Shown piece by piece: positions 4,081 to 51,246 of a stretch of 51,246 nucleotides of DNA. Origin of the DNA: Desulfovibrio sp. (GTDB taxonomy: Bacteria > Bacillota > Dethiobacteria > DTU022). The stretch covers positions 1-51,246 of the forward strand of contig JAGUZX010000050.1 in NCBI GenBank assembly GCA_020060545.1, read 5' to 3'. Below the pieces are notes generated by a model that saw only the letters and a list, made by a program, of their open reading frames with translations, did no database searches and was not told where the DNA came from. The stretch's first letter is position 1. Each line of letters opens with the position of its first letter. A program made the position numbers and the translations under genes.

Positions 4081-5046
4081 TTAAGCCACGGCCTCCAGGT
4101 CGAGCAGCTTCATGGCCTGTTTACGGGCCAGTTCCAGGTTAGCCGCCGCGCCGATAACCTCGACTTCGAGCATTTCCTGGTACTCCGCGATCATGGCCTT
4201 CAACTCCTGGACGCGGCCCAGGTAATTGTCGATCGTCGTACCCGTAACCTTTTTGCCCTGCTCGGCCTGGTGGATCAGGCCCGCCATTTCGTCGATCAGG
4301 GCCTTGGACGCGGCCTTAACCTGGTCTTCCAGGCTCTCATGGACCATAGCCCGTTGCTCCTCGGTATCCACAACCGGCATGCTGTGCATTGAGCTTTTCC
4401 AGGAAGTTGCACTGTAGCCTGACAACTCTTTGACCATGCGCTGCAGGCCGTCCACGGTCTCCGCGTGCTTTTGAGGCACGAAGTAGACGCCGCCGCTGGG
4501 CCTGACCGAAACCGGGTTGCAGCCGTGGAGGATGCGCTGCACTATCTCCCGGACGTGGCGGCCGTTGTAGTTCATCTTGTCGGCCTCGTACCGCCTTGCC
4601 AGCCGCTGGACCATTTCGTGCTCCAGCCGGGACAACTCGATCAGGTCGACCAACTCCTTGACCTCCAGGCTCTCGCCGTTAAGCTCCAGGCTGAAAATCG
4701 GCTTGTACTCCAGACGCACGTTCTTGCTGTCCACGATCTCCCGCACAAGCTGGCGAACGACCTGATCCGGGCTGCATTTCACTTCCCGGACCAGCAGGTT
4801 AAGGTAACGGCCGCCACCGGCCAGTTCCTCCCGGTTCAACTCCATCGTCTTTGTCGCCCGTCTAAAGGCGTCCCGGTGGCTAATCGGGAAGGGCAGCCAT
4901 TTCTGGTCGATGCCCGCCCGCTCAAAAACGCCTTCAAGCTCCTCCCTGGTGATCCGGGTTTCTGTGATCGTGAACCAGAGCAGCCGTCCCAGAAGGCTTA
5001 TATCGTACACTTGGCCGTCAATGCCCATCAGTTTCTCGATTACCAT
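4081..5046 (-). CDS. Third gene of the MoxR/VWA set (DUF6744-like)
   Basis: 321 mostly helical residues. The C-terminal third is a likely coiled coil (DQVKAASKALIDEMAGLIHQ through LEVEVIGAAANLELARKQAM). The middle has VREIVQRILHGCNPVSVRPSGGVYFVPQ, a basic/aromatic segment that may bind nucleic acid or a partner. It resembles phage proteins grouped as DUF6744, from memory and unverified. It is 24 bp downstream of the VWA gene and ends at a strong terminator, so it probably works with the MoxR ATPase and VWA protein as substrate, adaptor or effector. Confidence 0.7.
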   Translation of the reverse strand: MVIEKLMGIDGQVYDISLLGRLLWFTITETRITREELEGVFERAGIDQKWLPFPISHRDAFRRATKTMELNREELAGGGRYLNLLVREVKCSPDQVVRQLVREIVDSKNVRLEYKPIFSLELNGESLEVKELVDLIELSRLEHEMVQRLARRYEADKMNYNGRHVREIVQRILHGCNPVSVRPSGGVYFVPQKHAETVDGLQRMVKELSGYSATSWKSSMHSMPVVDTEEQRAMVHESLEDQVKAASKALIDEMAGLIHQAEQGKKVTGTTIDNYLGRVQELKAMIAEYQEMLEVEVIGAAANLELARKQAMKLLDLEAVA

Positions 5047-5069
5047 TTTTCCTTCCTCCTCGTTTTATT

Positions 5070-6554
5070 TTAGTTGACTATCCGCTCAAACACTTCGCCG
5101 GCCACGTCGTCCGTCAGGTGACTGACCGGCCAGACCGCGTCACTCCACTTCTTCAGCTCGCCGGAGGGGTCCCGGTCGCCGATCAGGACCGTCCAGCAGC
5201 GGGCGCCGTGGTGCTTCTTGCGTTCCAAGAAGCCTTTCAGCCACTCGTCGTCAACCCTGCAGAGCCCGTCGGTGATCATCACCACGTCGGCGCTCTTGTA
5301 AGCCTGCTGGTCCATGTTGTCGACCGCCCAGGAGAGGGCCGGGACGTAGTCGGTGCCGCCGGCGGTCCCGGTGGATGCCATGTCGATGTACTTCTGCGGG
5401 TCCCGCTCGCCGGGGGCAAACTCGATCACCTTCAATACCCTGGTATCGACGAAGACGACCGCCGTCTGCCGCTTCTGCCGGGCCGCCGTGTCCGCCAGGC
5501 CCAGGGCTACGGCGATCGCCCAGTTCAGCGGGTGGCCGCTCATGCTGCCGCTGATGTCCACCAGCGCGATCATTGGGCCTTTGCCCTGGGGCTCGTTGGC
5601 CTGCAGCTCGTACTGCAGCAACTGGCCTTCCAGAAAACGCCGCTGGAAGTCGCGCCGGCGGACCGGGTTCTTGAGCGCCGCCAGTTCCGCCGGGAGCACC
5701 CGGCCCAGGTCGTTGCCGATCGTTATGCTGTGTATCTCGTCGCGGTTCTTCTTCACCCGCTGGTCGTACTTGGCCTTGGCCAGGTTCCGCATGCGGCCCA
5801 CCATGTCCGCCAGCTTCCGCACGTGGGGCATGCGGAGCTGTCTGACCAGGCTGATCCTGGCCTCCAGCGGAGCCTGCGCCAGATCGCCGGGTTCGAGCCC
5901 CCAGCCGCCCAGGGCGTTGACCGTCTGCCGGGCTTCCTCCTCCCCGGCCTTGGCAGCCTCTTTAACCGCCCGGCGTACCGAGCGGGCCGCCTGCTGGAGC
6001 GCCTGCCGGTTCTGCTGGGCCAGTGATCCGGCGTATTCCTGCGAGCCGTGGTCTTCCATGTTGTCGTACCCGGCTATCTCTCCCGCCTGGTGCATCGCTT
6101 CCTTTAACTCCGGGCGCTGTTCGATCTCCTGCATCAGCCTGCGCCCGGCGGCAACCGTGGCCAGGGCGCTTGAAAGTTCGTCAAGCGCCGTAATCACGCG
6201 GGCCTGGCCTGTTTCCGGGTCTTCCAGCAGTTTTTCCACGAACGGCCGGTTTGCCAGGTGGCCCTGCTCCACGTCGCTCTCCGGGGCCAACTCGGGGAGG
6301 CTCTTGTAAAAGCAGCCCCAGACGTCCTGCAGGAGCGCGGGCCAGGTGGCCATCTCCTTCTCGCCGGCCTGGTGTTGCAGGCCCCGCAGTTCGCCGCTGG
6401 CGTTCAGGACGTCCTTGTAGAGCCTCCCGTCGAGCCGGTCCATAATCAGGTTATTCTTGCGGGTAACGCGAGCAGCCGGGGTGTCGAGCGGAAGGTCCGC
6501 GGTCCCCGGCTGCCCCTGCAGTTCGTCGAGCGTCTGCATCAAATCCCCAGACAT
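5070..6554 (-). CDS. VWA-domain protein, partner of MoxR ATPase
   Basis: 494 residues. The N-terminal 320 are helical and the C-terminal VWA domain has a complete metal-ion site: D333-I-S335-G-S337, Thr401 (GGTDY) and Asp429 (ITDG). This architecture matches CobT/ViaA-like proteins that act with MoxR-family AAA+ ATPases to remodel or insert metal into protein complexes. The start overlaps the MoxR gene end by 16 bp, so the two are translationally coupled. No signal peptide, hence cytoplasmic. The target in a phage context is unknown. Confidence 0.9.
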   Translation of the reverse strand: MSGDLMQTLDELQGQPGTADLPLDTPAARVTRKNNLIMDRLDGRLYKDVLNASGELRGLQHQAGEKEMATWPALLQDVWGCFYKSLPELAPESDVEQGHLANRPFVEKLLEDPETGQARVITALDELSSALATVAAGRRLMQEIEQRPELKEAMHQAGEIAGYDNMEDHGSQEYAGSLAQQNRQALQQAARSVRRAVKEAAKAGEEEARQTVNALGGWGLEPGDLAQAPLEARISLVRQLRMPHVRKLADMVGRMRNLAKAKYDQRVKKNRDEIHSITIGNDLGRVLPAELAALKNPVRRRDFQRRFLEGQLLQYELQANEPQGKGPMIALVDISGSMSGHPLNWAIAVALGLADTAARQKRQTAVVFVDTRVLKVIEFAPGERDPQKYIDMASTGTAGGTDYVPALSWAVDNMDQQAYKSADVVMITDGLCRVDDEWLKGFLERKKHHGARCWTVLIGDRDPSGELKKWSDAVWPVSHLTDDVAGEVFERIVN

Positions 6555-7654
6555 TTCTCCACTACCTCCTTATTCCAGGATGCCACCTGCTCCCGGGCCT
6601 CCTGGATGCGGCCGGTGTCCTTCCCCTTGGCCTGGGCGTCGTTGAGCAAGCCTTCGAGCTTGTGCAACACCATTTTGAACTTCTTGTTCGATTCCCGGCC
6701 GGCGTCCGTCGCCTTGTCTTCGGGCGCGGCCATGGCGTTCTGGTAAGTTTCGACCGCTTCGTCCATCAGGTCGTTGACCGCCTGGACGATCGGGTTAGCC
6801 AGAGCCATGATCGTCTGCTTCACCTGCACCCGCTGGTCCGGCGTCTGCCAGAGCGCGTGGGCCAGGATTTCCAGGTCTTCCTCGGTGGCCTCCGTGCGGC
6901 CCTGGAGCCAGGCGTGGGCCTTGACCAGGTCGAGCGATTGCTTCCAGCGGCGGTCGCTGACCGGGATGTGCAGCTTGTTCATTTCCTGCCGCAGGCCCGC
7001 CAGGTGGCGGACGATCTTGGCGATGTCCACCTGGGCGACTGCCGCCTGGGCGCTGTCCAGTTCGTCCATGCTGATGGTGGTTCTGGTGGATGCCGCCCCG
7101 CCGTTGCCGGTGAGCATGGCGGCGAAGTTGCGCGGGTCCCGGATGTACGCCACCATGTAGCGCAGCAGGAAGCGATCCCAGAGCGCCGAAAGCTCGTCGC
7201 CTTCGGGCAGCTCGTTGCTGGCGCCGACTGCCATTTGCAGTGGCAGCATTGTCGGCGTCCCGTCGTTAAAGAAAAGGCGCTCGTTTAGCGCCGAAAGGTT
7301 CATGTTCAGCACGGCGCTGTTCGACTTCCAGATTTCGTCCAGAAACCAGAGGTCGGCCTCCGGGGCCTTGCCCGTGGTGACGCGCCGGTAGCTGTCATTC
7401 TCCAGCGCGGCCAGGCTGACCGGCCCGTAAAGCTCCTCCGGCGTGGTCGTCTTGGACAGCAGCCAGCGGAAGTAGCGGCCGCCGATCCGGGTGCAAAGGT
7501 CTTCGACCATCGCCGACTTGGCCGTGCCGGGAGGGCCCAGCAGGAGCACATGCTGCCGGGCCAGCAGGCCGATCAGCAGGCCCCTTGTTTCGTCGCGGCG
7601 CTCCTTGAAGCTGCCGTTTAGCTCGTTTTCGATCGCGGAAAACTTGTTACGCAT
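6539..7654 (-). CDS. MoxR-family AAA+ ATPase (RavA-like)
   Basis: 371 residues. Walker A GPPGTAKS (40-47), Walker B LWFLDE (102-107), sensor-1 Asn147 in GASNELPEGDELSALWDRF and the following arginine finger Arg161 define a complete MoxR ATPase; the ELPEGDE..ALWDRF motif is typical of RavA-type members. MoxR proteins work with VWA partners as chaperone-like remodelling machines. It is upstream of and overlaps the VWA gene. The basic/acidic C-terminal region (about 290-371) is predicted helical and may contact the partner. Confidence 0.92.
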   Translation of the reverse strand: MRNKFSAIENELNGSFKERRDETRGLLIGLLARQHVLLLGPPGTAKSAMVEDLCTRIGGRYFRWLLSKTTTPEELYGPVSLAALENDSYRRVTTGKAPEADLWFLDEIWKSNSAVLNMNLSALNERLFFNDGTPTMLPLQMAVGASNELPEGDELSALWDRFLLRYMVAYIRDPRNFAAMLTGNGGAASTRTTISMDELDSAQAAVAQVDIAKIVRHLAGLRQEMNKLHIPVSDRRWKQSLDLVKAHAWLQGRTEATEEDLEILAHALWQTPDQRVQVKQTIMALANPIVQAVNDLMDEAVETYQNAMAAPEDKATDAGRESNKKFKMVLHKLEGLLNDAQAKGKDTGRIQEAREQVASWNKEVVEKCLGI

Positions 7655-31394: not shown

Positions 31395-31842
31395 TATTGT
31401 CCCGCCTGTTATCTTCTTGCCTCACATTCTCGGTAGGCTCACCCCTGCTTAGTCGCTCGACCTTGACCGCCACGTCGAACCACCTGGCCAGATCGGCCGG
31501 CGACAAGTCTTCTGGATTTATCGTCCGTAAGCGCTCCACGAGTTTCTGCTGGAACAGCATGGCCTGGTTCGCATGCCGTTCGGCCATTGCTTTTACCCGC
31601 TTCTCGTTTTCGCGCCGGGCCCCCTGGTCCAGGTGGTCGTCCCAGGCTTCAACCCGCAAGACCCATTGCCAGCGAGAACTCCAGCGCTGGAGCAAAACCT
31701 TGTGTTTGCCTAACTGCTGGGATACTTTCGATAAACTCCTGTCAGCACCCATGTCCCGGTAAATGCAAAAAGCCTCAAAGGCTTTCTGTGTCTCGCCTTT
31801 CTGTCGTTCCCAGGGCTGTCGGTCGTCCTTGCCCAACCTCAT
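31273..31842 (-). CDS. terS: Terminase small subunit
   Basis: 189 residues. The N-terminal helices (ETQKAFEAFCIYRDMGADRSLSKVSQQLGKHKVLLQRWSSRWQWVLRVEAWD) form the DNA-binding HTH typical of small terminases, followed by helices for ring assembly. The start overlaps the ParB-like stop (ATGA). The C-terminal 40 codons overlap the TerL start in another frame. Confidence 0.85.
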   Translation of the reverse strand: MRLGKDDRQPWERQKGETQKAFEAFCIYRDMGADRSLSKVSQQLGKHKVLLQRWSSRWQWVLRVEAWDDHLDQGARRENEKRVKAMAERHANQAMLFQQKLVERLRTINPEDLSPADLARWFDVAVKVERLSRGEPTENVRQEDNRRDNNELAKRILSDPEARRLAGQLLGRIIPGSAGTGGPGVGSER

Positions 31843-32765
31843 TCACCACCTAAATAATCGGCGGCCCAGTATTCTATGGCCTGCCAGAGGTTCTTTTTGC
31901 CCACATGGCCGTCTTCCTGCATCTGCTTGACGGCCCGCCTAACCACTTCGGCTGCCTCTTTAGGCATGGTGCCGCTGCCAAATATACTGGAGAGCGCAAC
32001 CCAGGGCTCGTCATCCTCCCGTATGCCCACCTCCGCCACTATTTCCAGGGCCGTCCGCGCCATTACGGCGACCGCCGTGCCCGCAGACCGGATGTCCATA
32101 AATCGGGAGAACTTGATCACTGCGTCCGCAAACGCCTTAAACAACTCTATCGGCGCGACGGAGACCAGGTCTTGCCTGCCCTCTAAGCTGTTGATTAGCG
32201 CCTTCATGTCGTCCAGTTGGTGAGGAAGAAACACAAACGATACAGTCTTCCAGTCAAAGTCGACCTTCGGCGCTATAAGGGTGTCCAAGACGGCCTCCGG
32301 TTCGGTCAATATATCCTTGGGTAGATGGGCCTCCAGCATGTCGTCGACATCCGTTATAATTTGCGCTATTTGCCGGATGATGTTTTGGTCGTCGAACCCG
32401 CTGATGCTGTTATGTGCGAGCTGTTTAGCCGCTATCTGCGAACGGCTCAGCCCCGACTCGTCCAGGAGCACGGTTATTTCCTTCAACCCCGCCTCCCTGG
32501 CCGCCCTGCTCCGGTGGTGGCCCGAGATTATTTCCACCCTCCCGTTGACCAGGGCGCAGAAGGGCAGGCTTTCCAGGGAGCCACGCTTTTTCACGTTGGC
32601 GACCAGTTGTTTGAACATGGCCGGGTTCATGGTCCGAGCGTTGACATCTTGCTCCCGCAGGTTATCCAGGACAACTCTGGCTATGCTCAGTCCCTGGCCC
32701 AGTTCGATTATTTTTTCATAGACTTGGCCCTCGCCTTCCTCCACTGGGCTTCCTTCCTGAGCCAT
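31839..32765 (-). CDS. ParB-like nuclease-domain protein
   Basis: 308 residues. The ParB N-terminal fold is clear: NVKKRGSLESLPFCALVNGRVEIISGHHRSRAAREAG, with the GHHR nucleotide-binding motif (CTPase/ParB-N). The C-terminal part is helical. Phages often encode such a protein next to a methyltransferase/Mom-like protein and TerS. Likely DNA binding or DNA modification support rather than partition, as no ParA is present. It overlaps the upstream gene by 58 bp. Confidence 0.85.
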   Translation of the reverse strand: MAQEGSPVEEGEGQVYEKIIELGQGLSIARVVLDNLREQDVNARTMNPAMFKQLVANVKKRGSLESLPFCALVNGRVEIISGHHRSRAAREAGLKEITVLLDESGLSRSQIAAKQLAHNSISGFDDQNIIRQIAQIITDVDDMLEAHLPKDILTEPEAVLDTLIAPKVDFDWKTVSFVFLPHQLDDMKALINSLEGRQDLVSVAPIELFKAFADAVIKFSRFMDIRSAGTAVAVMARTALEIVAEVGIREDDEPWVALSSIFGSGTMPKEAAEVVRRAVKQMQEDGHVGKKNLWQAIEYWAADYLGGE

Positions 32766-34141
32766 TCGGTTAATACCCCCTGTAGACTGTTGTCGTTCAA
32801 AGGCGCCTCGTATGTCAGGCGGTACCCCATCTTGGAATCCTTTGCCCGCCGCACGAGCTTCATAATGCCGCGTTCTTCTTTGCTTTCCGGTTTCGAAGTC
32901 AGCATGGCCGTGACCACGCTCTCGACTTTCTCGTATTCCAGCGGAGAAAGCACCGGCTTGATCACCGCGCGGGTCAAGGCCGCCATTGACAGGAGCCGGC
33001 CCATGCGGAGCGTGTTATGGGGCGTCGTAACGCCGTAGGTCAGCAGCAGCGCCGTGCGCTCCTCCTGCCCGAACCTCCCGATGTTGAGCCAGCCTGGATC
33101 GTATCCGAACACGCCCGCCAGGTACCCGTCCACTTTTAAGGCCAAGTTGATCGGCGCCGATTTCCCGGCGAAGTTGTGCGTCCAAATAGACCGGTAGTAC
33201 AGGGCGTTTGCCCTGGTGATGCTTTCCACCTCAACGCGCGACCTCTCGGTAATAGCGTGATCCGCCGGCATCGGTGGCCCCTTGAGGGGCTCCATGGCGA
33301 CCGGGCCTGGGCGGACGATTTTCTTTCCCCGCGCGAGAGCCTCTACCTCATCCGGCCTGTTTGTTGTAAGGTAGACATTTATGTTTTGGCGCACGCCGAA
33401 ACGTGCGAATACGGGAGCGCCTGCGGTCTTACCCGGTTCGTTTTCCTCGTAGCAGATTACCAGGGCCTTTGCGTCCTTTGCCCACTGGCACATTAGTTTT
33501 ACAAGGCCCGTTTCCGGGTCGAAGATTTCATATGGCGGTTCCTTCCACCGCATCCTTCCGCCGGTGTCGTACCACTTCTCAAAACCCGCCGTGTATGTGG
33601 GCGGGTTGATGCAGACAAGGGCCTCCGGGTCGGACAGGACCTCCGTCAGGTGAGCCCACATGCAGAGCGGGCGGTACCTCATTCCTGAAAGCAGTTCCTT
33701 CGCCCGCTGTAGCTGCTTTCGGATTACGCCCACATGGTGCTCTTGTCTTTTGTGCAGGTCGTGCAGCAACTCGGCGAAATATGTCTTGCCTGCCTTGGTA
33801 GCGGTTCTCAGGACCAGGTGCGTCCACAGGGCCACGGCCGGGTCGGTCAAGTCCTCCCCCTCGTAGCCATCCGCCTCTAAGCGCAGCCCCGCCAGGTCCT
33901 GTCCCGTGATTGCGTAGCCCATTATCGAACTGAACATCGACACGTCGCTGGTGTCGATTTGGTCCGCTGGCCACCCGACAGACTGTGCTAAGTGAGCCAT
34001 GGCGAAAGCCCCGGCGCATGGTTCTATAAACCGCGTGTAGCCCTGTCTCAAAGCGTTCTCGATAACCGCTTTCAAGAACGCCTGCTCTTTGGCAACCAGC
34101 GTGCCCAGGAAGAAAGAGCCTGGGTTCTGGAAACGTGCCAT
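32708..34141 (-). CDS. Putative antirestriction adenine methyltransferase with Mom-like C-terminal domain
   Basis: 477 residues from ATG 34141 (GGAGG upstream). Residues about 35-245 resemble D12-type N6-adenine methyltransferases: FIEPCAGAFAMAHLA (SAM binding) and the catalytic-type NPPTY (usual NPPY). Residues about 300-460 (ALYYRSIWTHNFAGKSAPINLALKVDGYLAGVFGYDP, NTLRMGRLLSMAALTR, and a VVTAMLTSKPESKEERGIMKL segment) match a GNAT/Mom-like half seen in phage antirestriction proteins. A likely role is base modification that protects phage DNA from restriction. The NPPT variation may mean binding of a modified substrate. Confidence 0.75.
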   Translation of the reverse strand: MARFQNPGSFFLGTLVAKEQAFLKAVIENALRQGYTRFIEPCAGAFAMAHLAQSVGWPADQIDTSDVSMFSSIMGYAITGQDLAGLRLEADGYEGEDLTDPAVALWTHLVLRTATKAGKTYFAELLHDLHKRQEHHVGVIRKQLQRAKELLSGMRYRPLCMWAHLTEVLSDPEALVCINPPTYTAGFEKWYDTGGRMRWKEPPYEIFDPETGLVKLMCQWAKDAKALVICYEENEPGKTAGAPVFARFGVRQNINVYLTTNRPDEVEALARGKKIVRPGPVAMEPLKGPPMPADHAITERSRVEVESITRANALYYRSIWTHNFAGKSAPINLALKVDGYLAGVFGYDPGWLNIGRFGQEERTALLLTYGVTTPHNTLRMGRLLSMAALTRAVIKPVLSPLEYEKVESVVTAMLTSKPESKEERGIMKLVRRAKDSKMGYRLTYEAPLNDNSLQGVLTEWLRKEAQWRKARAKSMKK

Positions 34142-34166
34142 GAGATACCTCCAAACAAAAACAGAT

Positions 34167-34188
34167 GCCCCCGCCGCGAGGCGAGGGC
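34167..34188. terminator. Bidirectional terminator-like hairpin below the tRNA
   Basis: 9-bp arms (34167-34175 with 34180-34188, one mismatch), GCGA loop, followed by TTTTGTTTT on plus and by ATCTGTTTTTG on minus. It separates the tRNA from the methyltransferase gene. Confidence 0.6.
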
Positions 34189-34198
34189 TTTTGTTTTC

Positions 34199-34274
34199 TG
34201 GGCCGCCGGGAGGGACTCGAACCCTCCATGCCCCGTGTAAAGAGCACGGTGCTCTACCGTTGAGCTACGGGCGG
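34199..34274 (-). tRNA. tRNA, anticodon CUU by position (Lys)
   Basis: 76 nt with encoded CCA. Acceptor CCGCCCG/CCGGCGG (one C-C mismatch), D stem GCTC/GAGC, perfect anticodon stem CCGTG/CACGG, T arm GAGGG-TTCGAGT-CCCTC. The anticodon loop CTCTTTA puts CTT at 34-36. U at 37 is odd (A is usual) and the variable loop has six nt, so identity is less certain than the fold. It is phage-borne, between a DUF488 gene and the methyltransferase. Confidence 0.8.
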
Positions 34275-34293
34275 ACGGTTTTGGTCGTTCGAT

Positions 34294-34734
34294 TTAGAAG
34301 AGGCTGAATGTCAACTGGGTAACCGTTTTACTTCCTTTGTCGGGTGGATAAAGCAGGTCCAGCTCCTCCACTTTTTCCCCTGTTTTAGACCCCCACCACT
34401 CCGCAAACACGAGCCTGTGACACCATTCCCGCGGCTTGCTCACGTCCTCGTAGCAGAGCAGAACCAGGTCCCTTCCGCCGTGCTCCCGGCTGATTCGCTC
34501 CAACTGGCGCCGGATTTTTTCGACCCCAATCCGATCCAGCTTCGCATAAAACTTTGGCGTAAACGCCGCCCGGTCATTTATTTGGAACATCCATCCGTCC
34601 GGGGCCAGTTCCCTGACGTATTCAACCACTTGGTACGGCAACGGAAACTTCGGAACGCCCAAAGTGATACCTACCGGCACGAGACCGCTGTCGGCTATTT
34701 GCTTGTGTTTATACCGGCCGGTATACAACTTCAC
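34294..34734 (-). CDS. DUF488-family protein
   Basis: 146 residues from GTG 34734 (GGGGGG upstream). The signature LVLLCYEDVSKPREWCHRLVFAEWW contains the conserved Cys...WCHR of DUF488 proteins, a family of unknown biochemistry often found on mobile elements. The N-terminus (MKLYTGRYKHKQIADSGLVPV) is the first strand of the fold. It heads the late-side DNA-modification group (tRNA, methyltransferase, ParB). Confidence 0.8.
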   Translation of the reverse strand: MKLYTGRYKHKQIADSGLVPVGITLGVPKFPLPYQVVEYVRELAPDGWMFQINDRAAFTPKFYAKLDRIGVEKIRRQLERISREHGGRDLVLLCYEDVSKPREWCHRLVFAEWWGSKTGEKVEELDLLYPPDKGSKTVTQLTFSLF

Positions 34735-34771
34735 CTAAACACCCCCCAAAAAACCCATCCTTCAATCTTAG

Positions 34772-34812
34772 TCTATACCATAATTTAGGGGTATGCAAGT
34801 GTTTTTGCATAA
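34772..34812 (-). promoter_or_regulatory. Putative promoter and inverted repeat before the DUF488 gene
   Basis: Minus: TGG-TATAGA (extended -10, 34772-34780) and TTGCAT (34793-34798) with a short 15-bp spacer. TTGCAT is one arm of the inverted repeat ATGCAA-6-TTGCAT (34793-34810). It could give extra transcription of the packaging operon. The rest of the 144-bp gap shows nothing else. Confidence 0.4.
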
Positions 34813-34878
34813 ATAATTCCGTTTTTGATGGATATGGGCGTTCGCCCTAATGCTCGCGTGAGCTTGCTGCCTTTCCCT

Positions 34879-35447: not shown

Positions 35448-35711
35448 TTAACCGGCCCCGCCTTCCCCGCCTTCGTGGTTATGGTCCGGAGGGACCTCGT
35501 GGGCGTTCCATGCCGGGCCACAGAGCTTGACTCCATTGTCCCATTTGGCTACGGCGTATTCGGAAAACGGCTCTCCATGCCCTCCGTTCCACCCCTCAAA
35601 GACGGCATCGAAAAGGACCTCGCAGGTTGCGGCGTGGACGTGGACGCGGTACCGCTTGCCCTGTTCGAGCTTCCATCTGACTACCGGCATGCCCAGGTGT
35701 ACCAGCATCAA
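35448..35711 (-). CDS. First gene after the late-leader terminator
   Basis: 87 residues from TTG 35711 (8 nt from GAGG; ATG 35708 follows). Strand-rich: LGMPVVRWKLEQGKRYRVHVHAATCEVLFDAVFEGW, then a polar, His/Gly-rich tail. No family recognised. It lies only 28 bp after a strong intrinsic terminator, so its expression likely depends on transcription passing that terminator. Confidence 0.55.
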   Translation of the reverse strand: MMLVHLGMPVVRWKLEQGKRYRVHVHAATCEVLFDAVFEGWNGGHGEPFSEYAVAKWDNGVKLCGPAWNAHEVPPDHNHEGGEGGAG

Positions 35712-35738: not shown

Positions 35739-35773
35739 AAAAAAAAATAGCCCCCGGGGTTTTAGCCCGGGGG
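35739..35773 (-). terminator. Strong terminator ending the late-leader RNA
   Basis: 8-bp stem CCCCCGGG/CCCGGGGG (35766-35773 with 35751-35758), followed on minus by CTAT9 (nine T at 35739-35747). It stands between the 36.02-kb promoter and all late genes. Confidence 0.9.
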
Positions 35774-35987
35774 TTGCACGCACTTACTTTTTTGGTGGGC
35801 GTCGGCTCTGGGACGGCTGGAGTCCCCCGGCGCCCTATTAAATGCCGACTTGCGGCTTTTAATCCTGGGACGCGGGGCAGGGTTTTGGTGCGCCCCGCCC
35901 CGCGTCCAGCCAGCAACGCTTCTCCTGCGGGGAGGAAGGAGTGGTACCCTTATCCAATACGGTATTCCCAAAATGGGAATACGATAC
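35739..35987 (-). ncRNA. Structured ~245-nt late-leader RNA (lambda 6S-like arrangement)
   Basis: Transcript predicted from the consensus promoter at 35994-36023 to the T9 terminator. No ORF with a ribosome site. Main hairpin: perfect 11-bp GGACGCGGGGC/GCCCCGCGTCC (35897-35907 with 35868-35878). A second, TTAAA-GCCG/CGGC-TTTAA with an A-A mismatch, follows. By position (promoter, short RNA, terminator, then packaging genes) it is like the lambda pR' 6S RNA, whose extension by an antiterminator turns on late genes. A free-acting small RNA is also possible. Confidence 0.65.
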
Positions 35988-36023
35988 GCCACTATAATAC
36001 TTTAGGTCTCTGGAGATTGTCAA
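35962..36023 (-). promoter_or_regulatory. Consensus late promoter with operator-like palindrome
   Basis: -35 TTGACA (36018-36023), 18-bp spacer, -10 TATTAT (35994-35999). Just downstream of the predicted start is the perfect inverted repeat GTATTCCC-5-GGGAATAC (35962-35982), which could be a repressor site or an RNA hairpin at the 5' end of the transcript. Confidence 0.8.
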
Positions 36024-36028
36024 CATGT

Positions 36029-36286
36029 TTAAATTAATTCATACGGACGCCGCTTGGGACGCGGTTTCCGGCGCTTTCTTCCCGCGCGTTTTGAGCCACC
36101 TCGTTTGCCTCTCTTGCGGTCTCCCTGCCAGACGAACCGGATATGGCTGTCTTTGATCCCTTTGACATGGGGCTCGTCCTCGTCCGGGATGTTGGGCCAC
36201 CACTCGCCGCAGCCGCCGGGGCACCTGTAAAAGTCATGCTCCTGCCACTCCAGCCGCTTCATGCAGATCGGGCAGTGCAGCTCCAT
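36029..36286 (-). CDS. Small zinc-finger protein with basic tail
   Basis: 85 residues from ATG 36286 (AGGAG 6 nt upstream; TTG 36307 is possible). CPICMKRLEW and YRCPGGCGEWWP give a zinc-ribbon, and the last 30 residues are strongly basic (RKRGKRGGSKRAGRKRRKPRPKRR). The design suggests DNA or RNA binding. It is the last gene of the early operon, stopping six bp before the late -35, so a role in late control is worth considering. Confidence 0.65.
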   Translation of the reverse strand: MELHCPICMKRLEWQEHDFYRCPGGCGEWWPNIPDEDEPHVKGIKDSHIRFVWQGDRKRGKRGGSKRAGRKRRKPRPKRRPYELI

Positions 36287-45974: not shown

Positions 45975-47054
45975 TTAGCGGAGTAAGGCACCGGGCAGCC
46001 AGTCCACGAACTGGTCCAGCAGCCCCTGGTCCTTGCAGACTTTCGACAGGTCTTTTATCTCCAGCGGATTGTTGATGTCCGGCGAGAAGAACACGCCGGC
46101 CAGTTCGAGCACTTTTTCCCTCGTAATACCCATCGCGTAAACGGCCTGCCAGAACTCATTCCACTTGATCTTGCCGTTCCCGCTGTTGCCGTTTTGCCGG
46201 GCTGGGCCGGCTTGAGCTTCCGGAGCAGGTTGCGGACCGGGTTTCGGCGGCGGCTCCTTGGTCTCGGCTGGCCCGCCTTCGGACCCGTTAACTACCTCGC
46301 CGTCTATAACCTTGCCGTCCGCGAGCACGTCCGGCGGGAAAAGGTCGTCCGGGGCTTCGTTCATGTCCAGGTCGATGCCCTGGGGAAGCGCATTTTCCTG
46401 GGGTATCGACTTCAGCATTTGCTCAAGCGTTAAATGCTGATAGTGCAAGTCCAGGACGTAGACCGTTTTCTTCTTGCCCTCCACCGTGGCCTCATGCGGC
46501 TTGACCATCAGCTTCAGCGGAATCATGGCAATACGGCCACCAGTGAGTGACATTAAGAATCTAATGGCGCTGTTGAGGTTCAGGATCGTGTTGATGCTTC
46601 TGCTGTCCAGTTGCCAGCAGCCGATACCGGGAACCTTTGGCAGCAGGAACATCAGCGTGCCCACCGCTAGGCATTGTTTATTCTGGTACCACTCGCAGGT
46701 GTCGGGATTGCAGTCGATCTCCCGCAGCTCTCCGGTCTCCCGGTCCGCCTCTACCGCCTTCACCCCGTCGCCTTTGCAGATCAGGCCCGTGCCTTTTCCA
46801 TAGCGCCGGTACCACTGCGGGAAGAAAGTTTCGATATTGTGTACCGGAAACATGATGTCGAGCACCTTGGGCTTTTCGCCGTAGACGTCGTGGAAAGCCT
46901 TGGCCATTGACTCCGGCGTGGACTGATCGGGATTGACGACGAAATAGTCGACAGGTTTGGGGTAAGAAGACCGCTGCCCTTCCACCTTGACGCCCAGGCG
47001 GACCTTGCCCAGCCGGGGCAGCCTGGTACGCTCGGAAAGATTCTTAATCGGCAT
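45975..47054 (-). CDS. Candidate recombination directionality factor (phiC31 gp3-like)
   Basis: 359 residues. The beginning MPIKNLSERTRLPRLGKVRLGVKVEGQ and YPKPVDYFVV match the Gp3-like family, whose phiC31 member switches its serine integrase to excision. A Cys cluster C93, C115, C120, C128 (CNPDTCEWYQNKQC) may bind Zn. A Pro/Gly-rich linker precedes a C-terminal helical part. Serine integrases need such a factor for attL x attR; none other is visible. Homology is by sequence pattern, so the role remains to be shown. It also may act in phage replication, as gp3-like proteins are made early. Confidence 0.75.
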   Translation of the reverse strand: MPIKNLSERTRLPRLGKVRLGVKVEGQRSSYPKPVDYFVVNPDQSTPESMAKAFHDVYGEKPKVLDIMFPVHNIETFFPQWYRRYGKGTGLICKGDGVKAVEADRETGELREIDCNPDTCEWYQNKQCLAVGTLMFLLPKVPGIGCWQLDSRSINTILNLNSAIRFLMSLTGGRIAMIPLKLMVKPHEATVEGKKKTVYVLDLHYQHLTLEQMLKSIPQENALPQGIDLDMNEAPDDLFPPDVLADGKVIDGEVVNGSEGGPAETKEPPPKPGPQPAPEAQAGPARQNGNSGNGKIKWNEFWQAVYAMGITREKVLELAGVFFSPDINNPLEIKDLSKVCKDQGLLDQFVDWLPGALLR

Positions 47055-47646
47055 TGCAGGCCGCCCCCTTCCCGTTCTCCGGCTTTCGGGCTTCGATCAC
47101 CCGGCTGGCCCACATGTCGGCCCAGTGCAGGATCATCTGCAGCGGAGTCTCCCTGCCCTGGATAACGCGGCCGTCGGGCGTGTATAGGCCGTTGTGGTAG
47201 AGGATCGCGTAAGTCTCTTCCTCGGTCAGGTAGATGTACTGGCTCAGGATGTGGACGCTGGCCACCTGGTGCGGGATCGGCAAGCGCTCCGGGTTGCAGC
47301 AGTAAGGCTTGCTGTCGCTGACCTTGCCGCTTTTTACCCGGTTCTGGATGTAGTGCGGTTTGGAGTAGTACATCGACTTACCCAGGTCGTGGAACAGGCC
47401 GCAGATGATCAGGGAATCGTCGGGGATGTCGTCTTTGTCCAGCCCAAAGGCGTTGCGCAGCCGGAACATCAGGCCGGTGACGTTCAGCGAGTGCCGGAGG
47501 TTGCCGGCCTCGCAGGCGCCGTGGTACTGGGTGCTGGACGGCGCGGTGAAATAGTCGCCTACGGCCAGGTAAAATACAAGGTGCTCTATGCCTTCGCGTT
47601 GGACACGGCGTAAATATTCAAATAACTCGTCTTTCAAGTCTTTCAA
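47044..47646 (-). CDS. HD-domain phosphohydrolase
   Basis: 200 residues from TTG 47646, TTGA overlap with the upstream HTH gene. H in GNLRHSLNV, HD in LFHDLGKSMYYS, later PHQVASVH and WADMWAS make a complete HD metal site. Possible substrates are nucleotides or cyclic nucleotides. It overlaps the gp3-like start by 11 bp. Confidence 0.88.
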   Translation of the reverse strand: MKDLKDELFEYLRRVQREGIEHLVFYLAVGDYFTAPSSTQYHGACEAGNLRHSLNVTGLMFRLRNAFGLDKDDIPDDSLIICGLFHDLGKSMYYSKPHYIQNRVKSGKVSDSKPYCCNPERLPIPHQVASVHILSQYIYLTEEETYAILYHNGLYTPDGRVIQGRETPLQMILHWADMWASRVIEARKPENGKGAACNAD

Positions 47647-47909
47647 GCCGATTCTCCTCCTTTTTGTCCAGGCTTGACCTGCGCGTAGACGAAGGCGATC
47701 TGTCCCGGCTCGTACAGGTGGCCCGGCGTGACTCCAAGGTACTGCGCCAGTTTTTCCACCTCGTCGGGCGTCGGAACGATATGCCCGTTCTCCAGCATCG
47801 ACAGCCTGGACCGTTTAATGCCGATGTGTTCGGCGACCGCCTGCTGGGACGCAGGCTTAGCGCCTTCGGCAAGCAACTTTTCGCGGTAAAAGCGGATACC
47901 GTTCTGCAT
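47643..47909 (-). CDS. XRE-family HTH regulator
   Basis: 88 residues from ATG 47909. An HTH_3 domain covers 1-65 (ASQQAVAEHIGIKRSRLSMLENGHIVPTPDEVEKLAQYLGV) with a short tail. Probably a Cro-like or early transcription regulator. Confidence 0.88.
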   Translation of the reverse strand: MQNGIRFYREKLLAEGAKPASQQAVAEHIGIKRSRLSMLENGHIVPTPDEVEKLAQYLGVTPGHLYEPGQIAFVYAQVKPGQKGGESA

Positions 47910-48454: not shown

Positions 48455-49003
48455 CTACTTTTTCTGAGCGCCGTTCGGGCGCTTTCTCTTTTCTGGGTAC
48501 TCCTTGTCGATGTTCTCCTGCTCGACCTCGTCGTACAGATCCGCCAGGCTGATGTCCCAGCCGTCAGAGACCACACAGAGGAACGTTTCAGCAGCGCGTA
48601 TGGCCTGAATCACCTCCCGGAACATCCCTCTGGCCTGCGTTTTCTCAGGTTCGGTCAAAAGAGGGTTCAGCCACAGCCGGGGGGTTCCGCGAACCGCCTC
48701 CCCGGCTTCTTCCAATTCCAGCAGGAAATAATCCCTGGCCACAAGGCGGTGGTTTTCGATATTTGCCAGGGAAAGGGCCATCACCCCGCCGGTGGCCTCC
48801 CGCTGTAGGGCCTTGTAGAACCGTGCCTGATCGAGCGCCCGGGCGAGGTGCCGCCGCATTTCCTTCGTTATGCCCCGCTGGCCCTGTTCGATCTTGCGGA
48901 CCAGGCTGCCGCTGCAGTGGGCCTTCTCTGCGAGCGCGTCGGCGCTCCGTCCCGTTTTCTTCCTTTCCTCCCTGAGAATTGTCCCAAGTTCCAGTTTGAT
49001 CAC
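48455..49003 (-). CDS. Cro/C1-type HTH regulator with long C-terminal part
   Basis: 182 residues from GTG 49003. HTH in REERKKTGRSADALAEKAHCSGSLVRKIEQGQRGITKEMRRHLARAL, then a helical region (VIQAIRAAETFLCVVSDGWDISLADLYDEVEQENID) that resembles phage regulators of early genes. Basic end (EYPEKRKRPNGAQKK). Confidence 0.8.
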   Translation of the reverse strand: MIKLELGTILREERKKTGRSADALAEKAHCSGSLVRKIEQGQRGITKEMRRHLARALDQARFYKALQREATGGVMALSLANIENHRLVARDYFLLELEEAGEAVRGTPRLWLNPLLTEPEKTQARGMFREVIQAIRAAETFLCVVSDGWDISLADLYDEVEQENIDKEYPEKRKRPNGAQKK

Positions 49004-49329: not shown

Positions 49330-49761
49330 ATGAAATACCTTGTTGAGCTGATCGGCGACTGTGACCACAAAGAGCTGCAGCGTAAAATCAACTACTGGTT
49401 ACGGGCGGAAAGGCCCCGCCGGGTCTACAGTGTCCAGTTTGTCGCCGACGGAACCGAGCTTACTTACTGCTGCCTGTTCCTTTACGCGCCGGGCAGATCG
49501 GCGGGCCGGTCGTCATCGGCCACAAACAAAACGCCTGGGGGGACGCCGAAGGGTTCAGCGATCCGCCGGGCGTTTCGTAGTTTGGTTTTCTTGCCCTTCT
49601 CGATCCGGCACAACCAGGCGGGTGACATACCAATTAGGCAGGCCAGGTGCGCGAGCGACCAGCCGCGGCCTACCCGCATCATCTGGAGCATCGTCACACC
49701 ATACTCGTTACGCCGGGGCTCAACGAGCAGGATGTCTGTAGCCCGCCGGTGCTCCTGGTGA
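49330..49761 (+). CDS. Cse60-like small protein with antisense-overlapping extension
   Basis: ATG 49330 has GAGG 6 nt upstream. The first 55 residues (MKYLVELIGDCDHKELQRKI, then a RVYSVQFVADGTELTYCCLFLYAP segment) follow the pattern of Cse60, a small B. subtilis sporulation protein. Beyond that (to residue 143) the frame is only the complement of the HTH gene at 49482 and looks meaningless, so the ancestral stop may have been lost. It is opposite to the early operon, which would be transcribed through it antisense. The Cse60 match is from memory. Confidence 0.5.
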   Translation: MKYLVELIGDCDHKELQRKINYWLRAERPRRVYSVQFVADGTELTYCCLFLYAPGRSAGRSSSATNKTPGGTPKGSAIRRAFRSLVFLPFSIRHNQAGDIPIRQARCASDQPRPTRIIWSIVTPYSLRRGSTSRMSVARRCSW

Positions 49762-49877
49762 ATGATCTGGTGTATCCGCTGGCGGCTGATCCGCAGTTCC
49801 CTGGCCACGGCAGCCTGTGTATCTCCGTTAGCCAGTTGGCTGATGATTTGCTTGGTCCGCTCGGCCATGTGCGCCAA
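49482..49877 (-). CDS. Early regulator with two HTH domains
   Basis: 131 residues from TTG 49877 (GAGG 8 nt upstream). First HTH: QIISQLANGDTQAAVARELRISRQRIHQII (resolvase/sigma-like). Second: LQMMRVGRGWSLAHLACLIGMSPAWLCRIEKGKKTKLRNARRIAEPFGV (XRE type). As first gene behind the early promoter and its operators, it is the likely Cro-equivalent. Confidence 0.82.
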   Translation of the reverse strand: MAHMAERTKQIISQLANGDTQAAVARELRISRQRIHQIIHQEHRRATDILLVEPRRNEYGVTMLQMMRVGRGWSLAHLACLIGMSPAWLCRIEKGKKTKLRNARRIAEPFGVPPGVLFVADDDRPADLPGA

Positions 49878-49889
49878 AATAACCACCTC

Positions 49890-49940
49890 GGTGATTTAAT
49901 TATAAATCACCTAACCGGGGATGTCAATAAGGTGATAACC
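49890..49940 (-). promoter_or_regulatory. Consensus early promoter with operators
   Basis: -35 TTGACA (49922-49927), 17-bp spacer, -10 TATAAT (49899-49904): an exact consensus. The -10 lies within the perfect palindrome GGTGATTTA-4-TAAATCACC (49890-49911). A second, weaker site GGTGATAACC is at 49931-49940, upstream of the -35. This is the expected binding region for the C1-like repressor. Confidence 0.9.
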
Positions 49941-50484: not shown

Positions 50485-50977
50485 CCACTTGTTGCTAATT
50501 GCCTCGTTTTTGGGCGCCAGGGTGACGTATTCCGACCTTCACGCCATACATCCAAAACTCGAGGCCTATACGAGATTCCCGGCGATCCATCTTGATAAAT
50601 CCCTGGAGTGCCGTCCGCGCCAGCACAGGTGCGTTCTTGCCGAAGAGATCGGGCATGTCTGCTACCCGCCCAGACCGGGCCATGTGGCCTACCACGTCGC
50701 CGGCTCGTGGAACTCCCTGGATTATGAGGCCCGCGACGGCTTGGCGGTAATTGTAGCCCAGGACGAACGCAAAGCCCTAAAGTGGGCAACCGGGCTGTTG
50801 ATACCCAATAGCGCTTTCTGGCGCTTTGCTGGGAAAGGGCCACAAAGTATGGAAGACTGGCTGGAGGAGTTCGACGTGGAAAGGTGGTTCTTGGAAGCCA
50901 AAATCGGCCTGATCCGCGTAAGTCAGCCACCGAGGCAGCGGCTGCAGTGGAGGAATCTGATCAAACGCTCAATGTAA
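50465..50977 (+). CDS. ImmA/IrrE-like protein with altered HExxH
   Basis: 170 residues from ATG 50465. CVLAEEIGHVC aligns with the zinc-protease HExxH helix, but the first His is replaced (AEEIGH). Some phage members share this, so activity may be lost or a different ligand used. ImmA proteases cut the partner repressor in ICEBs1-like switches. TAA at 50975-50977 would overlap the integrase stop (50969-50971, minus) in the excised form. Confidence 0.82.
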   Translation: MGTITIDHLLLIASFLGARVTYSDLHAIHPKLEAYTRFPAIHLDKSLECRPRQHRCVLAEEIGHVCYPPRPGHVAYHVAGSWNSLDYEARDGLAVIVAQDERKALKWATGLLIPNSAFWRFAGKGPQSMEDWLEEFDVERWFLEAKIGLIRVSQPPRQRLQWRNLIKRSM

Positions 50978-51052
50978 AGGCGTTTCTCTGTACCTGCCTA
51001 TGCTTCGCTGAAACTGCCAAACGACTTCTACAGCAGGAATGTTGTATGGTTC

Positions 51053-51061
51053 TAAGCATCT
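51053..51061. other. attR: attR, right attachment core
   Basis: TAAGCATCT, identical to 88-96. Bases to the right are prkA, bases to the left are phage. In the excised circle this phage side supplies the last 27 integrase codons and its stop. Confidence 0.85.
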
Positions 51062-51246
51062 GCTGGAACTCCATCATCCCCCTGTTGGCGATGTTCAATT
51101 CGCCGTCAAAGCGGTAAGCGCGCGGGTCTGACTCCGACCCGTACTCGGTTATTGCGGAAAAATCTATACTGCCGGTTAGTTCTGCAATGTCCTGCGACTT
51201 CGGGTCGGACGGTGTGAACGTGCCGATACCCACTCTTTTCTCCTCC
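51053..51246 (-). pseudogene. prkA: prkA, 5'-side fragment (host gene cut by the prophage)
   Basis: Minus frame open from the window edge: EEKRVGIGTFTPSDPKSQD, then IAELTGSIDFSAITEYGSESDPRAYRFDGELNIANRGMMEFQQML. These are signature PrkA residues (AAA part), upstream of the segment found at 96-1. Beyond the junction the frame runs 30 codons into phage DNA to a stop at 50961 (RTIQHSCCRSRL...), giving a truncated protein in the lysogen. The gene start is outside the window. In Bacillus PrkA supports sporulation and prkA lies with yhbH and spoVR. Confidence 0.92.

Follow-up and report, generated by a model that had tools for sequence, protein, structure and literature searches.

Does a short promoter–RNA–terminator unit, lying between the replication and packaging genes of a prophage, control the genes beyond it by regulated read-through, does it release a stand-alone RNA, or does it simply close the operon before it? 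The unit lies on the minus strand of the window analyzed here, a stretch of 51,246 nt that constitutes an entire contig (C42) of a 2.5-Mb genome. Over 8.4 kb this DNA recurs with 100% identity on a 73.6-kb contig of Ammonifex sp. SURF_55 (L031), which runs on beyond the right end of the window into ordinary chromosomal genes, so the element is an integrated prophage; its host is an Ammonifex-like, Clostridia-type Firmicute. A recombination-directionality-factor-like protein encoded at 45975–47054 fits a temperate phage.

Among the minus-strand genes, those for terminase, portal, head, tail and lysis have the lower coordinates and those for replication the higher. The unit has genes for a replication O-like protein, a DnaC-like ATPase, a methyltransferase and a VRR nuclease upstream and those for TerL, portal, head and tail downstream, and thus marks the early/late border, between replication and packaging genes. 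It is identical in two further assemblies of the same phage. Its components, all on the minus strand, are as follows.

36029–36286, minus strand: last upstream gene, encoding an 85-aa zinc ribbon with an Arg/Lys-rich tail; ends 6 bp before the −35 element
36018–36023, minus strand: −35 element TTGACA (6/6 sequence match)
35994–35999, minus strand: −10 element TATTAT (5/6 sequence match), after an 18-bp spacer
35981–35986, minus strand: −10-like hexamer TATCGT, at about +2 to +7 (4/6 match, with A2 and T6)
35962–35982, minus strand: palindrome GTATTCCCATTTTGGGAATAC with 9-bp perfect arms, a putative operator also able to form a 5' RNA hairpin
35929–35942, minus strand: C/U-rich linker ACUCCUUCCUCCCC, Shine-Dalgarno-complementary and partly unpaired (from fold and complementarity)
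35868–35907, minus strand: predicted hairpin 1, a 15-bp stem (one G-U) with a 10-nt loop (RNA fold)
35837–35863, minus strand: predicted hairpin 2, 6 + 4 bp around an A-A mismatch (RNA fold)
35797–35835, minus strand: predicted hairpin 3, 13 bp with a bulge (RNA fold)
35739–35773, minus strand: intrinsic terminator (from sequence) with 8 G-C pairs, a 7-nt loop, CTA and T9
35448–35708, minus strand: first downstream gene, 86 aa, codon score 0.16, no family match

Genes elsewhere in the window were also recorded. At the right end, near the prophage/host border, a fragment with a PrkA AAA domain (50961–51233) may be an interrupted host gene. In the most distal part of the late region, downstream of a separate promoter at 10.7 kb, genes for a MoxR-type AAA ATPase (bpMoxR), a VWA-domain protein and a DUF6744 protein are grouped at 4081–7654. 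Near the left end, 1860–2915 gave a weak match to a DNA polymerase III sliding-clamp domain, under the curated cut-off.

The promoter, its palindrome and the terminator

The initial annotation had proposed a TTGACA/TATTAT promoter with an 18-bp spacer, and both hexamers were found where it placed them, on the minus strand, which it had left unstated. By its sequence this is a near-consensus sigma-A promoter. It was the sole 11/12 site within 32–40 kb and one of only two minus-strand sites scoring at least 11/12 in the whole window, the single higher one being a 12/12 site at 49927. Transcription is predicted, from spacing alone, to start near 35987, which places the hexamer TATCGT just after the start; as a 4/6 match of this kind is expected by chance in about 8% of cases (a hand estimate, with the start position itself predicted), it is a possible, weakly indicated sigma-dependent pause element.

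The palindrome GTATTCCCATTTTGGGAATAC starts about 11 nt past the −10 element and spans about +6 to +26. In the genome it is unique except for one site with three mismatches (contig C107), and in other viral contigs it was found in unrelated contexts. The window contains seven perfect inverted repeats (arms of at least 9 bp, spacer of at most 8 nt), compared to about two expected from first-order Markov simulations, and three of the seven sit on minus-strand prophage promoters, at 49.9, 36.0 and 10.7 kb. Besides the one at 35982–35962, these are:

49911–49890, minus strand: inverted repeat GGTGATTTA-N4-TAAATCACC, on the 12/12 promoter
10730–10709, minus strand: inverted repeat ATTATAGCA-N4-TGCTATAAT, on a promoter with a perfect TATAAT, 9/12 overall

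Because of this location of three repeats on promoters, we read the palindrome at 35982–35962 as probably an operator, and the earlier proposal of an additional control point just past the start site is well supported in that putative role. The three promoter palindromes differ in sequence from one another and may therefore serve different repressors, an arrangement that points to separate control of three operons; the window encodes three XRE-type proteins (47643–47909, 48455–49003 and 49482–49886). In a viral contig (L024, 2266–2286), several TTCCCAA-C-TTGGGAA palindromes resemble the operator of the window, the sequence being otherwise unrelated.

At the other end of the unit, the T9 run of the terminator (35747–35739) agreed with the initial annotation, but the perfect 11-bp hairpin described there proved to be a stem of eight contiguous G-C pairs, formed by 35773–35766 with 35758–35751. 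The rarity of such a combination was estimated by counting promoters of at least 9/12 with a strong terminator 60–400 nt downstream, with base rates taken from 243 kb of host DNA. This host DNA contained 10 promoters of at least 11/12 and seven strong terminators, and no pair within that definition. The window held one strong pair, the present unit, and one weak pair, where roughly 0.07 strong pairs would be expected (a hand estimate from simple rates), before the palindrome, the fold and the position are counted.

Fold, coding status and relatives of the leader RNA

From the predicted start to the end of the T run, the leader measures about 248 nt. Folding calculations predict three hairpins that abut almost without linker, and this core (35907–35797) has a calculated energy of −64.1 kcal/mol, with a z-score of −5.35 against shuffled sequences and a minimum structure that accounts for 70% of the ensemble. 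The z-score for the entire transcript is −4.71, and the opposite strand is nearly as stable (z = −4.53). Hairpins 1–3 of the leader RNA are predicted from folding energy.

The stretch had been described as about 245 nt without an ORF. Strictly, two mechanical ORFs cross it, at 35916–35722 (preceded by AGGAG) and 35992–35762, but the description is right in effect, as their codon scores (−0.22 and −0.25) resemble those of shadow ORFs (median −0.19), compared to −0.02 to 0.45 for genes. Codon usage therefore indicates that the leader is non-coding, and on the same basis the ORF at 35916–35722 was ruled out as a leader peptide.

Covariance-model searches of Rfam, the 6S and EAR families included, returned nothing above threshold for the leader (the best hit being a 13.8-bit chance match), and blastn with relaxed E-values detected no homologue in phage and plasmid records. 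No relative of the leader DNA was found in 98 genomes of the same class or in about 400 of the same phylum, and a covariance model built from the single sequence recovered only itself from the 98 genomes and the retrieved loci. Short matches in G072, G412 and G418 were rejected: one was an unrelated GC-rich terminator, another an unrelated GC-rich hairpin and the third a short chance match. Viral contigs collected through six neighboring proteins consisted of the identical phage and of distant relatives without the leader.

Read-through and the alternatives to it

The ATG of the 86-aa gene, at 35708, lies about 30 nt past the terminator, with its ribosome site 20–30 nt after the T run. As no promoter fits within these ~30 nt, the gene needs read-through, and as its mRNA must pass the terminator, antitermination at this point appears plausible from the layout, although leaky termination would also serve. 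Moreover, no minus-strand promoter of at least 9/12 was found between 35994 and 28936, which favors dependence of the downstream genes on read-through.

We therefore tentatively prefer, at somewhat less than even confidence, a reading in which a repressible promoter gives rise to a discrete, structured RNA and transcription continues into the genes downstream by regulated read-through. In the lysogen, a repressor would bind the palindrome. Once it leaves, polymerase would make a discrete RNA of ~245 nt and stop by default at the T9 terminator, which would also halt early transcripts coming from upstream. A factor from the phage or its host, or else the leader RNA, would then make polymerase read through and so switch on at least the 86-aa gene with the small genes that follow, and perhaps the packaging operon as well. 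A bolder version, in which a new structured phage RNA, alone in the manner of put or with a new small factor, drives operator-gated, processive late antitermination, is distinctly doubtful.

Regarding the factor, the initial annotation had pointed to the zinc protein starting at 36286. Q proteins bind DNA through a helix-turn-helix (PMC7171158, PMC9371919), and the model of the 85-aa protein, of low confidence (mean pLDDT 61), is without helices, so that a Q role for it is unsupported; it also lacked homologues, and a family search gave only sub-threshold zinc-ribbon matches. This basic zinc protein may instead act on RNA. Neither a Q-type antiterminator (PF06530, PF03589, PF06323) nor a NusG-like protein was present in the Pfam matches of the early proteins scanned, among which there may be a diverged Q-like fold.

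How far the leader's influence might reach depends on a second candidate promoter. The unit does lie upstream of all late genes, as first proposed, but about 1.2 kb downstream of it there is another candidate late promoter, close to the start of the main late block:

34772–34798, minus strand: candidate rival late promoter TATGGTATAGACTAAG, TTGCAT-15-TATAGA with TG before the −10 element (from the relatives' matrix)
34294–34734, minus strand: phrog_2450-family gene (family match), first of the main late block

This gene is followed by tRNA-Lys, DAM/GNAT-like and ParB-like genes, TerL, portal, head and tail. Its protein has relatives in seven other viral contigs and in an additional 16 genome contigs, mostly from Clostridia; most of the distant relatives inspected have a promoter 32–87 nt ahead of the phrog_2450-family gene, in some cases with a small gene between the two. 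The site TATGGTATAGACTAAG lies 43 nt upstream of the gene in the window, falls where the region has one of its A+T-rich dips (34721–34860) and comes 13th among 102,444 positions scored with a matrix derived from ten partly related sites of the relatives. A promoter near 34777 may thus belong to the packaging operon itself, and control by the leader may be confined to the small genes at 35708–34879 or take in the packaging operon too; this is the chief correction to the initial annotation. The group encoded at 31839–34734, directly before TerL (a DAM-like/GNAT-like fusion, ParB-like and phrog_2450 proteins, with tRNA-Lys among them), is possibly a DNA modification module.

Several Clostridia prophages carry a conserved non-coding region of their own before the phrog_2450-family gene, consisting of CATATGTCACCCCTAAAAAA, a variable hairpin and then TATTTCAGTGTACTTAGA-N12-TATAAT; at several loci it is located after a phrog_1558 gene. 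It was found at the following positions.

L006, 5790–5975
L008, 5780–5965
L010, 5780–5960
L033, 3795–3975
L034, 3790–3975
L041, 2280–2462
L045, 3785–3960

The four of these loci that were scanned had no Rfam match. By eye, the hairpin stems vary and yet stay paired; RNAalifold on a MAFFT alignment missed them.

The main alternative to the leader reading is that the unit encodes a stand-alone phage sRNA, whose C/U-rich linker would pair with phage or host Shine-Dalgarno sequences while the hairpins stabilize it, the late genes being served by the promoter near 34777. We consider this possible, if rather unlikely. The compact and highly defined fold suits such a role, as does the late promoter adjoining the phrog_2450-family gene in distant relatives, for which the window has a candidate at the same place. 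Moreover, ACUCCUUCCUCCCC is Shine-Dalgarno-complementary, the best gene-start duplex, at the gene at 5046 (−26 kcal/mol), is equalled by 0.2% of random sites, and the Firmicutes sRNAs RoxS and FsrA use C-rich regions likewise (PMC8216469). Nevertheless, a tract of this kind will by its nature match many genes, the linker is predicted to be unpaired only in part (0.1–0.8 per base), no target is backed by conservation, and the 86-aa gene would be left without a promoter.

It is less probable still, and unlikely overall, that the terminator merely ends the early operon, with a promoter leaky for the small genes, hairpins without regulatory function and an activator-dependent late promoter near 34777. 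The position of TATGGTATAGACTAAG at 43 nt, within the 32–87 nt range of the relatives, speaks for it, but the matrix behind that site comes from only ten partly related sites and its −10 element matches at 4/6. In several relatives a phrog_1558 gene precedes the region, whereas none of the window proteins scanned had a phrog_1558 match, and an activator motif common to the 34.8 and 10.7 kb promoters was not significant. In any case, a near-consensus promoter with an operator and an extreme RNA fold would be left unexplained.

That the inverted repeats act as DNA, in packaging, replication or recombination, is very improbable: the stability of the opposite strand and the nearly perfect stems in DNA would agree with it, but the repeats are precisely flanked by a promoter and a terminator of the same strand, and the G-U pair of stem 1 is a mismatch in DNA.

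Comparison with known systems

Lambdoid phages are well known to control their late genes through read-through of a terminator, and searches of the open-access literature found no clear case in a Firmicutes phage. The lambda pR'-6S-tR' plan invoked by the initial annotation is recognizable here in a promoter, a short RNA and a terminator at the replication/packaging border. The likeness to pR'-tR' is one of layout: as no Q-family protein was found, we do not place the unit in the Q-dependent class.

A strong promoter, a short leader and an intrinsic terminator are common to the lambdoid pR'-tR'/Q systems (lambda, 21, 82) and to AlpA/PalpB-tB (PMC9371919, PMC7171158). With the lambdoid systems the unit shares a promoter at the early/late border, a short leader and a terminator before the putatively regulated genes; the 4/6 hexamer TATCGT follows the predicted start, where Q-type systems have a −10-like pause element in the initially transcribed region (PMC9371919), and is a possible counterpart. 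With AlpA/PalpB-tB it shares the strong promoter (there that of the regulated operon), the short leader RNA and the intrinsic terminator. In contrast to both, no Q or AlpA homologue was found, the leader is predicted to be highly structured, the putative operator palindrome lies in the initially transcribed region and the host is a Clostridia-type Firmicute.

By analogy with HK022 put, nascent RNA that folds close to the 5' end of a phage transcript could itself act on polymerase; put, however, acts on early genes (PMC9378689), whereas this unit is at the early/late border and its antitermination is putative. The LoaP/dfn leader of Bacillus likewise comes from a Firmicute and combines a hairpin element with an intrinsic terminator (PMC12691694), but the UNCG-tetraloop hairpin used by LoaP is absent here (the single UNCG in the leader has a 1-bp stem) and no LoaP-like phage protein was seen. 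As in RoxS and FsrA (PMC8216469), there is an own promoter and terminator and a C-rich stretch that may be open to pairing with ribosome sites; there is no sequence relation to them, the RNA here lies directly before a gene, and its targets are putative.

If the preferred reading, that of a repressible leader with regulated read-through, is true, the unit would be a late read-through leader in a Firmicutes phage built around an unrelated and highly folded RNA, which would suggest that a pR'-tR'-like plan arose independently.
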